Shown: positions 58,486 through 64,000 of the stretch, one piece after another
How the letters are laid out: each line of letters starts with the position of its first letter
Numbering within the stretch: position 1 is the first letter of the stretch
Source of the DNA: an uncultured Alphaproteobacteria bacterium
Lineage (GTDB): Bacteria > Pseudomonadota > Alphaproteobacteria > Geminicoccales > Geminicoccaceae
Length of the DNA: 64,000 nt
Direction: 5' to 3'
Assembly (NCBI GenBank): GCA_937926445.1
Contig: CALBAK010000006.1
Coordinates: forward strand, 62,001 to 126,000
Program-made: the position numbers and the translations under genes
The notes under the pieces: model-generated
Seen by the model: the letters and a program-made list of their open reading frames with translations, nothing else
Database searches by the model: none
Told to the model about the DNA's origin: nothing

Positions 58486-58551
58486 GAAACCCCTTCCGTG
58501 TCGACGAGATACCATGCTGCGCGGCCGTGACGCGCGACGCAGTGTCGCGGA

Positions 58552-59416
58552 TCACCGTCGCGCGGCGGTCACGAGGAGAAGCCCCGCGAGATCACCGGCG
58601 GTCGGTCGCTCGCCGAGGAGGGCGGTCGGGCCGAGCACCCCCACGGCGGGCACCAGGAAGGTGCCGAGCGTGGCGACGCCTACCGGCAGGCGGGGCAGGA
58701 TCGCGAACGAGAGTAGGCAGGCGAGCGCCTGGGCCAGGATCACGTGGTAGGCGGGCGCTGCTGCGGTGATCGGCAGGAGCGGGCCGGGCCGTGGCAGGCC
58801 CTCGAAGGCGAGCGTGCCGACGCCGGCCGCCGCCGCACCGATCACGAGCTGCCAGGCGGCGACCGTGAGTGCCGGGGCATCCAGGGGCCAGCGCTTGGTG
58901 ACGACCGAGCCGGCCGCCAAGCTCATCCCGCCCAGGAGCGCCCAGAGAAGGCCGATCGTCAGGGCCTCGACCCGCAACAGCGGCAGCCCTAGTGCCACGA
59001 GACCGCCGAGGCCGAGGCCGGGGCCCGACAGGCGACGCCGGTCCGGCCGCTCGCCGAGCACGGGCCAAGCGAGCAGGGCCGTCCAAACCGACATCGTGAA
59101 GGCCGCGATCGCGGTCCGCTACGTCGCCGCATGGAGCTGGGCGAACGCCAGCAGCACGTTGAAGGCGGCGAGTTGGAGGAGGCCACTGGCCACGAGCCGC
59201 GGCCAGTGCGCCCGCGGCACCGCGAGCGGCCGGCCGGTGGCGAGCGCGGCGGCGAGCAGGCAGGCACAGCCTAGCGGCCGCCATGCCGGTGGTCCGCAGC
59301 GTCCAGGGCGGGATCTCGACCAGGCAGAGCCGCACCGTCGGCCAGTTGAGGCCCCAGAGCACGCCCAGGAGCGGAACGGCCAGGACGGCGCCGCGGCTGC
59401 CGGCGGTCGTGCTCAC
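58552..59416 (-). pseudogene. EamA-family exporter, disrupted by a frameshift and a stop
   Basis: The start GTG 59416 overlaps the upstream acetyltransferase stop as GTGA, and the first helix reads VLAVPLLGVLWGLNWPTVRL. Around 59262-59281 the frame shifts, and the second frame reads LLAAALATGRPLAVPRAHWP and LQLAAFNVLLAFAQLHAAT. An in-frame TAG at 59121-59119 follows, then RTAIAAFTMSVWTALLAWPVLGE and the rest of a ten-helix drug/metabolite transporter ending at 58552. Both lesions fall inside conserved helices. A short protein could restart at the ATG in AFTMSVW, but would lack half the helices. Family substrates are metabolites or drugs. Confidence 0.8.
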
Positions 59417-60213: not shown

Positions 60214-60936
60214 TCAGCGCATCGGTCGCGCCGGTCCGGCCGTGTAAACGACCACGCGCTCCCGGCTCGAATCCATGAACCGATCGACCCCACCCGAGAG
60301 CCACAGCAGATGCACCCACGGGTCGGATTTCCCGCCGCACTCGATCCAGAGCTCCCGGTCGTGAAAGTCGCCGCGGCGTACTCGTAGCTTGCGCGGGTCG
60401 ATCGGAAAGAGCCACAAATCCGTGCCAGCGGGGGTGCCGGCTTCTCTGATCCGTTTCCGCAGACTCTCGACCTGCTCCCCTCTCGTGATCGGTTCCGCGC
60501 CGGGCACCCGCTCGGGATCCCGGTACCGGAGCTCGATGACCGCGGCCCAATCGGTCGCCCCGGCGACCGCGCTCAGAAACGCCGCAGTGGCTCGCCGATT
60601 GGGCTCGCCCTCGGCCAGGTAGGGGTCGCGAAGGACCCAACGCTCCGCTCTTTCGATGCCAGCCTCGCGGACAATACGGCTTGGATCCCGGGGCTGGTCG
60701 GGCTCCAAGCGCCAGGTTCTCGGCGCTGCCGAAGGCATGAACCGTTCGGCGTCAAGATGCCGCCATGTCGAGAACCAAGTATCGAGGTGTCGCAGCATAC
60801 CCTCGAATGCGAGAGCGATCTCCGCAACCTCCGAGGCGAGCCACCCGCCGAACAGCGGAGGAGCGGGTCGACGAGCGAGCCAAATCCCGTGCCCGACCGC
60901 TACGGCACAAGGATACCAGCCACTCTCGAACGTGCA
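60214..60936 (-). pseudogene. MIT_C/phospholipase-D-like module following the DUF1998 helicase remnant
   Basis: The frame is the same as that of the DUF1998 remnant upstream and is separated from it only by TAA at 60939-60937. No start codon lies between the TAA and ATG 60798, yet the intervening 46 codons read like protein (GWYPCAVAVGHGIW, FGGWLASEVAEIALAFEGML). From 60798 the 194 residues include ERWVLRDPYLAE, VIELRYRDPERV, a long alpha-helix EQVESLRKRIREAG, LRVRRGDFHDREL and WLSGGVDRFMDSSRERVVV. These resemble the HDR-containing phospholipase-D-like fold seen in MIT_C domains. Fold assignment is by eye. Either a separate small gene starting at 60798 or the tail of a giant fused protein. 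Confidence 0.55.
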
Positions 60937-63900
60937 TTAGCTCGGTATCTCACAGAGCGACAACAGTCCTCGGCGCAGCTCGTGCGACAGAGCTTCGACG
61001 AGGGAGCGGGTGGCCGGATCTTGATTGTCATAGAAGCGAAGCGGCCCGTCCAGACCGATGAGGACTTCGCGTCCAGGTGTGGCAATGCCGCGAAGGAAAC
61101 CGAGTACAGCCGCCCTATCGTCGTGCTCGAGGTCCGCGTCGGTTTCCACGAGCCGACCAGCCCCGATCCACACCCGGGTGGCCCCTTGGAGCCCCTGGCG
61201 TAAGCCGTCGAGGGTCGGTTCGGGCCATGGGCGAGTACCGAGACGAGCAAAGGCCTGCGTCGTCTCGTCGTCACGGTCGATCGATCGGAGCCAAGCCAGC
61301 ACCGCTCGCCGGTCAAAAAGGTGCCGCTGTCGTGGGTTGGTGTGGTCGAACAGGCATCGCCGACACCTTCTGTCACAGAAGGGGCAGTCCAGCCGGCGCT
61401 GGGGTGCCTCGAGTACGATGCGCAAGAGCCGTTCGCGACCGATCCGGTGAGGTTGCCCGGCCCCTCCCGCAAGTTGATCGCAAAGGACAATATCCGGTGC
61501 ATTACCGCGAAGCCGCCAAGTTCCACGCAGCTCCTGTAGATCGAGCTCCAAAAAAAACGTCGCTATCGTGAGTCGTAAATGGTCCAGAAGCGTCAGGAGA
61601 AAGCCCGTCCTTCGGGCCTCGGCGTCTTCTCATGAAAATAATGGCAAGGGGATGGCGAAGCGGATCTGGCAAGCGTCTGTGCTCTTGACGAGGCCGAGAT
61701 CGACTAAATTACTGAGTTTCGTCGAATGGCAGCGCTCGCCGCGGCGAGGATCGACATGCTCCGCTTCTCGGCCGGAGACGAGTCGTCGCAACGCGAGGGC
61801 ACGACGCGCGTACTCGCAGGCTGGACACCGTAGATAGCCGAAGCCCCTCGGGTCACGATTGACGACGAAGAGCTCTCCCCTCCTACGACGATCCGGGTGC
61901 CGCGCCGTCGGGTGCGCGAGGCTTACACCGGCGACATCGGTCGGCTGGAAAGCACCCTCCGGAGCCAAAGCCGGGAGCCGTGCCTCTTCGCTCACGGTTG
62001 CCCGCAGCCGGCGTGCGCTCGGATCTCGCCTTCGGGCTGGTCGGCGGAAGTAACGAAACCACACCGTTTCAAAAATCGTCGACTCGCCTCCGTTAGCTTC
62101 TCACCACAATTGGAGCAGTGTGTGGGGGCTTCGACCTCGAACAAATGGCCATGGCCGTGAGTGCATTGTCAGCAAATGTGATAGAGTTGTTATTGCTCGT
62201 ACTCGGCCCGATAACGGGCGATGCTGCTACTCGTCCGGATCCTCCCGGCCGCGACGACCTCAGCACCCGGAGCATATTCGGAGATGGCGAGCTGCGCTTC
62301 CCTGACCAGGTCGATCTCCTGGCCCGCCGCGAGATGGGCATAGTCGGGTCGCCGCGCGATGGACGGTCGCGTCGAGATTTCGAGGCGAACCGTATCGACC
62401 GGCAAGCTGTAACTCGGCACGAGACCGGATCGAACGAAAAGGTCGACGAGCTTCTGCATCTGAAAATAGTCGCGAATTCGCGTGCTCATGGCCAAGGCGA
62501 GCCGATCGTCTTCGGCGGTTCTCGCGTCGATGCGGCGGCGCTCGAAGTCGGCGAGCCGGTCGCAATGTTCCTCGAGGAACGTCAGAAAACGCTCGCTGAA
62601 CGCGCGAGCGAGTTCCTCCCGGAAAGGCCGGCGCCTCGGCTTCGGGAGAAGGCCGATCTCTCCCGCGGAGCGACCCGGCCCGGGCGATGGCTGCGCGCCC
62701 CGGCTCGCTTTCGAGCCAGGCCCACAGCTTGTCCGGGAGCGCTCCCGCAGCCTCTCGGGCCGGAACGTCACCCCATAGATCCTTGAGAGTGGGGGCGTTG
62801 CGAGCTGTCTGACCGAGTGCGGTGCCCACAAACTCCGCCAGCAGAATGGAGAATTGGTGACGGCGGAAGAACGGGTCGTTGTCGAGCCGGAGGCTCGGCG
62901 GAGCAGCTTTCCCCGCGAGATAGGCATCGAAATCGCGGAAACACGCGTGGTCGAAGTTCTCGCCCCGGACCATCGTGACGACCAGCGGAGCAGCCGGAGC
63001 GCGGCGTCCTGCCCGACCGACGCGCTGTTGGTAATTGGCGATGCCGGGTGGGACGTTGGCGTTCATGACGGCCTCGAGCTCCCCCGGATCGACCCCGAGT
63101 TCCATCGTCGTCGTGCAGGTCGAGAGACTGATCAGCCGTCGCGGAACTTGGCCTCGATCCGTTCTCGCGGTTTTATTTCTATTGCAGCCGTATGCTCGCG
63201 GGCGATCCCCGATAGCGGATGGCTTTTCCGGTAGACGTGCCGGTACACGTGGACGTGATGGTTGTCGTGCGCTCGCTGCTCCCGCTCTGGCTCGTCGACT
63301 GGGACGAACGCGCGGAAACAACGGTCGGCGCTGCAACTGCCGGCGAGAGAGACGAGCTGCTCAAGGCAGCAATGCGTGTAGCGCCACTGCGTCCGTCGCC
63401 GGGCCTCAAGCCAACGAAGCTTGTCGAGGGCGCGCACATGACCGCGTCTGCCACCGAACACGTCCGAGGGAACGAGGAGCCCGATTTGCGGGTGCGAGGC
63501 CGCACACCGCAGGCTCTCGAGCACCGCGCGGGCCTCGTTCTGCGGAAGACCGAGTGCCGTCCCTCGTCGCTCACTTCTGCGGTCTCGTCGGCATCGATGC
63601 GATGCGCTTCGTTCTCGAGTAGCAGCTGCACCCGCTCGCTTCGAGGCTCGGGCGACGAGTAAAAGCGGGTGCCCCTTCGCCACAGCTAGACGAACGGTGC
63701 CCCGCAATTCCTGTACGTCAACAGCAACCGGAAACGATCCTGCTCGGCCCCGGCGGAGCACCGGGCGCGGAGCTCGATCACGCCCTCGCCCTATTGCTGT
63801 CGAAGCTTGCAGACGACCGCCTCGATGCCAGACACGGCGAGATGGAAACGGGCCGGCAAGAGCGAAAAGCCCCCGCCGGCCGGGCGAGCCGATATGCCCA

Positions 63901-64000
63901 CTGTAACCACGCCCGTGAGAGAGCCTCGGCCGCCAGTCGAGGCTCTTCTTGCGGGTAGACACGCCCCGCCAGCTCGTCGAACCTCGGTAACCTACACTGT
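60937..64000 (-). pseudogene. DUF1998-type superfamily II helicase, multiply inactivated, continues past window
   Basis: Pieces in successive frames spell one protein. 64000 to about 63545: LLPARFHLAVSGIEAVV, with in-frame TAG at 63793-63791 and 63688-63686, and a YRNCGAPF zinc motif. About 63540-63137: GIAREHTAAI and RERIEAKFRDG, ending in a one-base loss. 63135 to about 62690: TTTMELGVDPGELEAV and NYQQRVGRAGRR (helicase motifs V-VI). To about 62040: YSLPVDTVRLE, AISEYAPGAEVVAAGRI, TAA at 62192-62190, TGA at 62171-62169, then CSNCGEKL. To 60937: GELFVVNRDPRGFGYLRCPAC, LGLVKSTDACQIRF, TGA at 61632-61630, LCDQLAGGAGQPHRI, CPFCDRRCRRCL. At least four frame changes and several stops of all three kinds. 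The region is less GC-rich than its surroundings. Confidence 0.85.

Follow-up and report, generated by a model that had tools for sequence, protein, structure and literature searches.

A decayed Druantia type III-like operon, probably acquired horizontally, in an uncultured alphaproteobacterium

Introduction

Druantia type III, the closest described system, is a two-gene operon (DruH-DruE) in which a large partner gene precedes the gene of a YprA-type helicase of ~2,000 residues containing RecA1, RecA2, an MZB zinc module, and a C-terminal PLD-like domain. Here, we analyze a locus with the same gene order and the same helicase architecture, located in a window of 64,000 nucleotides (contig C6, positions 62001 to 126000) of a 3.7 Mb draft genome in 120 contigs. 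The analysis was continued past the right edge of this window (sequence L001). Positions 60214-64000 (minus strand) hold the 3' three quarters (C-terminal ~75%) of a decayed druE gene encoding a Druantia YprA/DUF1998 helicase. We estimate at about 0.93 the probability that the locus represents what is left of an anti-phage operon of two genes, partner then druE, which resembled Druantia type III, was acquired horizontally behind a gene that we take to be uvrA, and then decayed. The homology, the gene order, the lesions, and the absence from one sister genome were directly observed.

According to PMC13192584, DruE is a dimeric helicase with a preference for 3'-tailed DNA, the ATP-pocket substitutions K121A and D251A abolish defence, and PLD domains are tied to nuclease output. 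The same text describes DruH as helical ends around a core with three immunoglobulin (Ig)-like domains, as substantially more divergent than DruE, and as the likely sensor. PLDi and PLDa of DruE are described in PMC13192584 and in PMC12458937. The latter, a survey of YprA helicases, delineates a 'Druantia Type III-like' branch, which resembles the present locus in comprising DruE-like helicases outside true type III with occasional PLD domains. The branch, to which our clade may correspond, differs in being most often devoid of a nuclease.

A decayed druE gene at the right edge of the window

The initial annotation, made from the letters of the window, had read positions 60214-64000 as a decayed, once-whole, DUF1998-class helicase gene on the minus strand. 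A frameshift-aware profile search, which it had suggested, traced a DruE-type gene from ~60214 to ~65264. The score of the locus was 2308 versus 52-66 for five nulls (reversed profile, other strand, and three shuffles). Thus, chance resemblance is excluded and the reading as a decayed helicase gene stands. The motifs that had been named (TTTMELGVDPG, NYQQRVGRAGRR, SLPVDTVRLE/EYAPGAEVV, the zinc blocks, and GGAG) were all found on the minus strand, in that order. Helicase_C scored above the Pfam cut-off in the 62260-63336 frame (27.4 versus 23.5 bits), whereas MZB remained sub-threshold in the 60937-61551 frame (18.3 bits, E 0.0039, cut-off 24.2). A six-frame search of the genome for MZB gave no match at E≤0.001.

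Nine pieces of the locus were scanned with PADLOC. DruE was the best match for four of them, namely the helicase core (8.7e-32), the MZB piece (9e-11), the SLPV segment (1.8e-9), and an upstream piece (1.3e-3). The 60214-60798 piece matched ZorD alone (C-terminal end of the model, 6e-8), and the four remaining upstream pieces had no match. The DruE1 model had six matches in the whole genome, five of which were located in this locus in gene order. The sixth was weak (E 0.037), and no second DruE was found with this model beyond that match. In a tblastn search with the intact DruE of locus L035, the locus covered residues 9-1983 in order (window ~65252 to 60244) with residues 538-936 uncovered. 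RecA1, RecA2, and MZB thus lie in one gene, as in DruE of any Druantia type, although the gene is broken here. The C-terminal PLD-like domain of type III is also present, on evidence that covers the last domain.

The right edge of the window is not the end of the locus. The druE pseudogene extends beyond 64000 to ~65264 (~127264 of the contig) and includes helicase motifs I-III there, as determined by tblastn with intact DruE and by frameshift-aware profile alignment. The initial annotation had advised looking for partner genes beyond 64000. This extension revealed the remnant of a partner gene (~66202-65534, 230-290 residues left), followed by uvrA. The features are as follows.

60214-64000, minus: part of the druE pseudogene lying in the window (tblastn with intact DruE, frameshift-aware profile alignment, PADLOC DruE)
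60214-60936, minus: lesion-free open frame for the C-terminal PLD-like domain (MIT_C-like, FHDR...GGVD), closing at the gene's own TGA (alignment of 20 DruE C-termini, AlphaFold, Foldseek)
60937-60939, minus: in-frame TAA ahead of the PLD-like domain, with the same frame on both sides (frameshift-aware trace)
60940-61551, minus: DUF1998/MZB block with GGAG and the last zinc cluster LDCPFCDRRCRRCLFDH, followed by the part that precedes the PLD-like domain (MZB 18.3 bits, DruE1 9e-11, motif check)
61630-62034, minus: OB/zinc segment (LRCPACEY), interrupted in frame by TGA near 61632; frame change near 62036 (frameshift-aware alignment)
62039-62657, minus: SLPVDTVRLE/EYAPGAEVV segment, with TAA near 62192, TGA near 62171, and a damaged first zinc cluster (DruE1 1.8e-9 for 62190-62927)
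62661-63132, minus: RecA2 core, motifs V and VI (STCTTTMELGVDPG, QRVGRAGRR) (Helicase_C 27.4 bits, DruE3 8.7e-32)
63137-63818, minus: degenerate stretch with an internal deletion, profile residues ~509-866 being largely missing at ~63775-63590 (tblastn, profile alignment)
63823-64000, minus: RecA1-side part at the window end, in two frames, running on past the window (tblastn, profile alignment)
66568-69426: presumed uvrA, 5' of the partner-gene remnant

The C-terminal PLD-like domain

A pattern-based scan for the helicase core, run on one genome per species (84,980 species), recovered 36 related loci, 28 of which contained an open helicase frame of more than 1,900 residues (1,931-2,033). The HDR motif of the 60214-60798 frame was found within the last 60 residues of 27 of these 28 relatives (all except L034). 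Since this motif and the tblastn match span the last open frame, and since only an in-frame TAA intervenes, that frame is the C-terminal end of druE itself. A Zorya remnant had been suggested at first by the ZorD1 match of 60214-60798; this candidate was rejected because the HDR end belongs to DruE itself. AlphaFold prediction of the C-terminal end (21 sequences) gave a mean predicted local distance difference test (pLDDT) of 77.5, and the top Foldseek matches of the predicted fold were MITD1 structures, with a PLD-like domain (E 7.5e-6).

This frame might have survived as a stand-alone PLD-like nuclease, an outcome that we regard as very unlikely. Its 240 codons are free of lesions, the HDR and GG[VI]D motifs are retained in the alignment with 20 DruE C-termini, and the predicted fold matches the PLD-like domain of MITD1. 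However, at the lesion rate of the gene, 240 consecutive codons would escape damage with a probability of ~0.10, and among the six parts only one is less identical to the consensus than this frame (0.39). The GC content at third codon positions (GC3) is higher in this frame than in the RecA1 part (0.78 versus 0.66), but the lesion-bearing RecA2 part reaches 0.77, and the three neighboring genes 0.87-0.94.

Similar C-terminal ends were observed in other proteins. The last frame (60214-60798) has a further match at the end of a 1,228-residue open reading frame (ORF) of genome G306 (L023:8880-12566, E 8.1e-6), which we take to be ZorD-like. A protein of genome G069 (L024:17265-19367), presumably BrxL-like, ends in Pfam MIT_C (4.3e-51). 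Perhaps a single tail is common to three defence systems. A small contig of the same genome as the window (L015, G000:C3, 3308 bp) consists mostly of one ZorD-type helicase gene (PADLOC ZorD1, 1.5e-274).

Long decay of the helicase gene

Lesions were counted by frameshift-aware alignment to a profile of 27 relatives with open frames of more than 1,900 residues, two of them incomplete (L053 and L056). At a frameshift penalty of 30 or 40, druE displayed six frame changes and eight in-frame stops, including five frame changes and four stops (two TAA and two TGA) inside 60214-64000. The initial annotation had reported at least four frame changes together with TAG, TAA, and TGA stops. The frame changes, TAA, and TGA were found, but the sole in-frame TAG of the trace lies upstream of the window, near 65018. 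Neither the two intact controls that were not part of the profile (G011 and G069) nor the one included in it (L025) had a frame change or a stop at these penalties. L030, L052, and L058, which are genes already seen to be split, had one frame change each.

The first stop of druE occurs at about residue 84, and ~350 residues are missing inside the gene (profile residues ~509-866 largely absent). The Walker A motif reads GT*SG-TE in the alignment and holds a stop but no lysine. The DEAH-type box reads DEIN, the Asp and Glu being kept and the His not. Motifs V-VI, GGAG, and HDR are retained. Among 324 near-invariant columns, 256 were aligned and 207 kept, versus 301 of 323 in the held-out intact gene of G069. 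Since the intact but more distant gene of G011 keeps 167 of 218, divergence may account for part of the shortfall. The six frame changes, the eight stops, the ~350 missing residues, the reduction of the partner gene to about one quarter, and the 207 of 256 near-invariant residues kept indicate long neglect. Thus, the recent loss initially proposed is not retained.

The alternative of a living DruE-type operon, with a frame broken by indel errors of the draft assembly, appears highly improbable. It would be in keeping with a draft of 120 contigs, with the somewhat denser A/T runs of at least five bases at the locus, and with the neighboring EamA-type frame, which is broken as well. However, the eight in-frame stops, the ~350 residues missing from druE, the truncation of the partner gene by about three quarters, and the broken Walker A motif speak against it, as do the open neighboring genes uvrA, trmFO, and GNAT. 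The proportion of near-invariant residues kept, lower than in G069 although not lower than in G011, also argues against this explanation.

Lesions were also found in relatives. Thirty of the 36 related loci had none and six (L030, L045, L047, L052, L053, and L058) had one or two. The profile used for this count included 27 of the 36 genes, and contig ends truncate several of the loci. Since these six related helicase loci also carry lesions, the locus is ordinary as a pseudogene, defence genes being known to come and go. What remains is a fossil and no longer a functioning defence. Neither protein can now be made whole, and the locus is most likely inert.

Comparison with other YprA-family systems

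The initial annotation had listed DISARM, Dpd, and MrfA helicases as candidates. The YprA/DUF1998 class was correct, but DruE replaces the members listed. For the helicase core, the next PADLOC matches after DruE were BrxH (3e-10), SngC (3.5e-8), DrmA (2.1e-6), and DpdJ (9.5e-6), and DpdF reached 1.6e-4; DruE was ahead of the DISARM and Dpd models by more than 20 orders of magnitude. A remnant of DISARM, Dpd, or an MrfA repair helicase, all of which share the helicase superfamily and a zinc module with DruE, can be dismissed as extremely improbable: the helicase and MZB parts belong to one protein of 1,988 residues in the intact relative L025 and are in frame order here, unlike class 1 DISARM, in which DrmA is accompanied by a separate DUF1998 gene, DrmB; the matches to DrmA and to the Dpd helicases DpdJ and DpdF are weak, the 7-deazaguanine gene cluster of Dpd not having been searched for; the homology spans ~1,980 residues of DruE versus ~750 for MrfA/YprA, which occurs alone or with MrfB (not searched for); and the tree places the gene with DruE relatives. 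By sequence, the locus is a Druantia helicase DruE rather than a DISARM, Dpd, or MrfA helicase. For four of four relatives examined, the DruE1 models scored equal to or above DruE3.

ARMADA, which associates a YprA helicase with a PglX-like methylase, contains a related helicase, and the same-genus genomes G020 and G023 carry a DruE-like helicase. However, the helicase of the window groups elsewhere in the tree, and none of the nine pieces scanned matched a methylase. The helicase genes of G023 (L086:5145-14155) and G020 (L089) are distinct from the one described here; that of G023 adjoins a DrmMI-like methylase gene, which fits ARMADA.

An unclassified partner family upstream of the helicase

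The helicase gene is immediately preceded by a complete ORF (1,009-1,205 residues) in 31 of the 36 related loci. In the remaining five (L028, L038, L043, L050, and L053), which were left out of the count, the ORF was split or cut by a contig end. The two genes overlapped in 27 of the 31 loci, by exactly 4 bases in 14 cases, and were separated by 2-20 bases in the other four. All 31 testable partners matched a single hidden Markov model (HMM), 23 being in its alignment and eight outside, of which the weakest was L057 (1.3e-17). The partner fragment of the window's genome matched the same HMM (1e-36). This fragment corresponds to profile residues 27-258 of 1138, other alignments extending to ~305-313, and about three quarters of the gene are gone. 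A search starting from the partner in 398 genomes of the phylum recovered this fragment and one additional genome, G759. In G759 (L093), a lesion-free helicase gene follows the partner, but the alignment of this helicase ends at profile residue 1637, short of the PLD tail.

The partner had first been labelled DruH, and this label was rejected. PADLOC DruH matched none of 24 partner members at E≤1, and a single member gave an AbiEii match, at 0.017. None was recognized by PADLOC or Pfam, the latter giving five single-member matches with a best E of 0.061. NCBIfam YjiT matched none of three relatives' partners at E≤0.1, and hhalign of the family against two DruH-type rows gave a probability of 0.2%. 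As a contrast, DruH of G011 matched PADLOC DruH3 (7.2e-47), NCBIfam YjiT (1.5e-64), and the solved DruH 9tud (2.9e-16). Conversely, the partner-family HMM detected neither DruH of G011 nor the equivalent ORF of G026 at E≤10.

The predicted structure of the L036 partner (mean pLDDT 81.8; predicted template modelling score, pTM, 0.55) comprises helices (12-243), a beta region (255-777), and helices (786-1091), a layout that resembles the published description of DruH. Foldseek and VIA-align detected Ig/FN3-type and macroglobulin-like domains, mostly within residues 400-800 (Z ≤9.3). The solved DruH 9tud was not among the matches listed, and the library may not contain it. On the basis of this model, the partner may perhaps be a divergent DruH or a replacement for DruH, two possibilities that are not distinguishable here.

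No paper naming the family was found in the literature covered, which did not extend to supplementary tables. This family provides a lead, since a large partner belonging to it precedes the helicase in every one of the 31 testable loci. It goes unrecognized by the models of PADLOC, Pfam, and NCBIfam that were tried, and pipelines built on these models would therefore see a lone DruE.

Acquisition of the locus

In G023, which belongs to the same genus and is assembled as a single contig, uvrA and the GNAT gene are syntenic and separated by 668 bp versus ~6.5 kb in the window's genome. A DUF29 gene (PF01724, 5.4e-44; L071:12876-13346) occupies the site next to uvrA, and the 668 bp displayed only short, chance-level matches to the insert. 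G022 and G024 have a different sequence after uvrA, the contig of G020 ends there, and G021 has no full uvrA match. The GC content of the locus is 63.5% versus 68.9% for window positions 1-58000. Among 73 windows of 6 kb (1-kb step), some of which include part of the locus, only 2 had a GC content this low.

The traced frame has a GC3 of 0.69, versus 0.87-0.94 in uvrA, trmFO, and GNAT, and 0.58-0.78 in five intact relatives. Foreign origin and decay therefore both fit. The A/T runs noted as unusual in the initial annotation amount to a small excess based on few runs (three runs of at least five bases in the 6.0 kb of the locus versus eight in 58 kb). In a tree of 1,131 columns, rooted by choice on G010, G011, G023, and G026, the gene joins 13 relatives (support 0.95, terminal branch 1.06) and groups with helicases of distant proteobacteria, not with those of its own family. 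Because the locus is absent from the G023 site and its GC content is low, acquisition followed by decay is likely, in agreement with the transfer initially suspected.

Several points weigh against an acquired, decayed, type III-like operon. A single sister genome tests the site, and the locus may have been lost from G023. Vertical inheritance of a divergent copy keeps some plausibility, since DruE-like helicases are not uncommon in the family, where 7 of 31 genomes, this one included, match DruE3 at 1e-20. The count of six frame changes depends on a penalty of at least 30 because lower penalties introduce false changes in divergent intact genes: a penalty of 14 gave 14 changes in this gene, 19 in G011, and 8 in G069, and a penalty of 20 gave 7, 0, and 2, respectively. 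Single lesions could be errors since they were read from the draft assembly alone. Finally, as judged from sequence comparison, the partner is not DruH, and type III proper is therefore not established.

Relatives and proposed function

The related loci belong mostly to proteobacteria, such as Cupriavidus necator (L026), Sphaerotilus natans (L035), and Thioclava atlantica (L048). They include three of deltaproteobacterial type (L027, L031, and L038), one of the Bryobacterales (L040), and one of the Spartobacteria (L057); we presume these higher ranks. The MZB piece gave no match in a scan of genome contigs, and searches of plasmids with this piece and one partner gave none either. Within the family, 2 of 31 genomes, this one included, matched the piece. 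Ten large neighbor proteins were picked from nine related loci. Four matched PADLOC defence models, namely type I restriction (L026), another DruE (L038), ZacC (L042), and Mko (L051), and the other six had no match at 1e-15. The neighbor genes of the relatives are in keeping with a defence role.

By analogy with the published DruE system, we infer that the ancestor of the locus worked in the same manner. The live partner, with predicted helical ends around Ig-like beta domains as in DruH, would have sensed infection and licensed DruE. DruE, an ATP-driven helicase, would load on phage DNA where single strands are exposed and cleave this DNA with its C-terminal PLD domain. The locus differs from Druantia type III in that both genes are dead in this genome and in that the relatives' partners tested did not match DruH in sequence. 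We tentatively propose, with somewhat less than even confidence, that the fossil derives from an unclassified two-gene Druantia-like subtype of proteobacteria and a few other phyla, in which a partner with tandem Ig-like domains replaces DruH as the phage sensor and licenses a DruE-type helicase-nuclease. If the partner does sense phage, as proposed for DruH, comparing both would show the sensor features that the helicase needs.

Flanking genes

The names uvrA, trmFO, and EamA are those that we presume from the sequences, and GNAT was named by Pfam. The flanking uvrA, trmFO, and GNAT genes are open frames. No tRNA was found in L001 1-12000. Two genes off the locus, the EamA-type transporter gene (~58520-59415, minus strand) is also broken: its reading frame shifts near 59270 and meets a TAG near 59121. 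Its counterpart in G023 is intact and encodes 297 residues.

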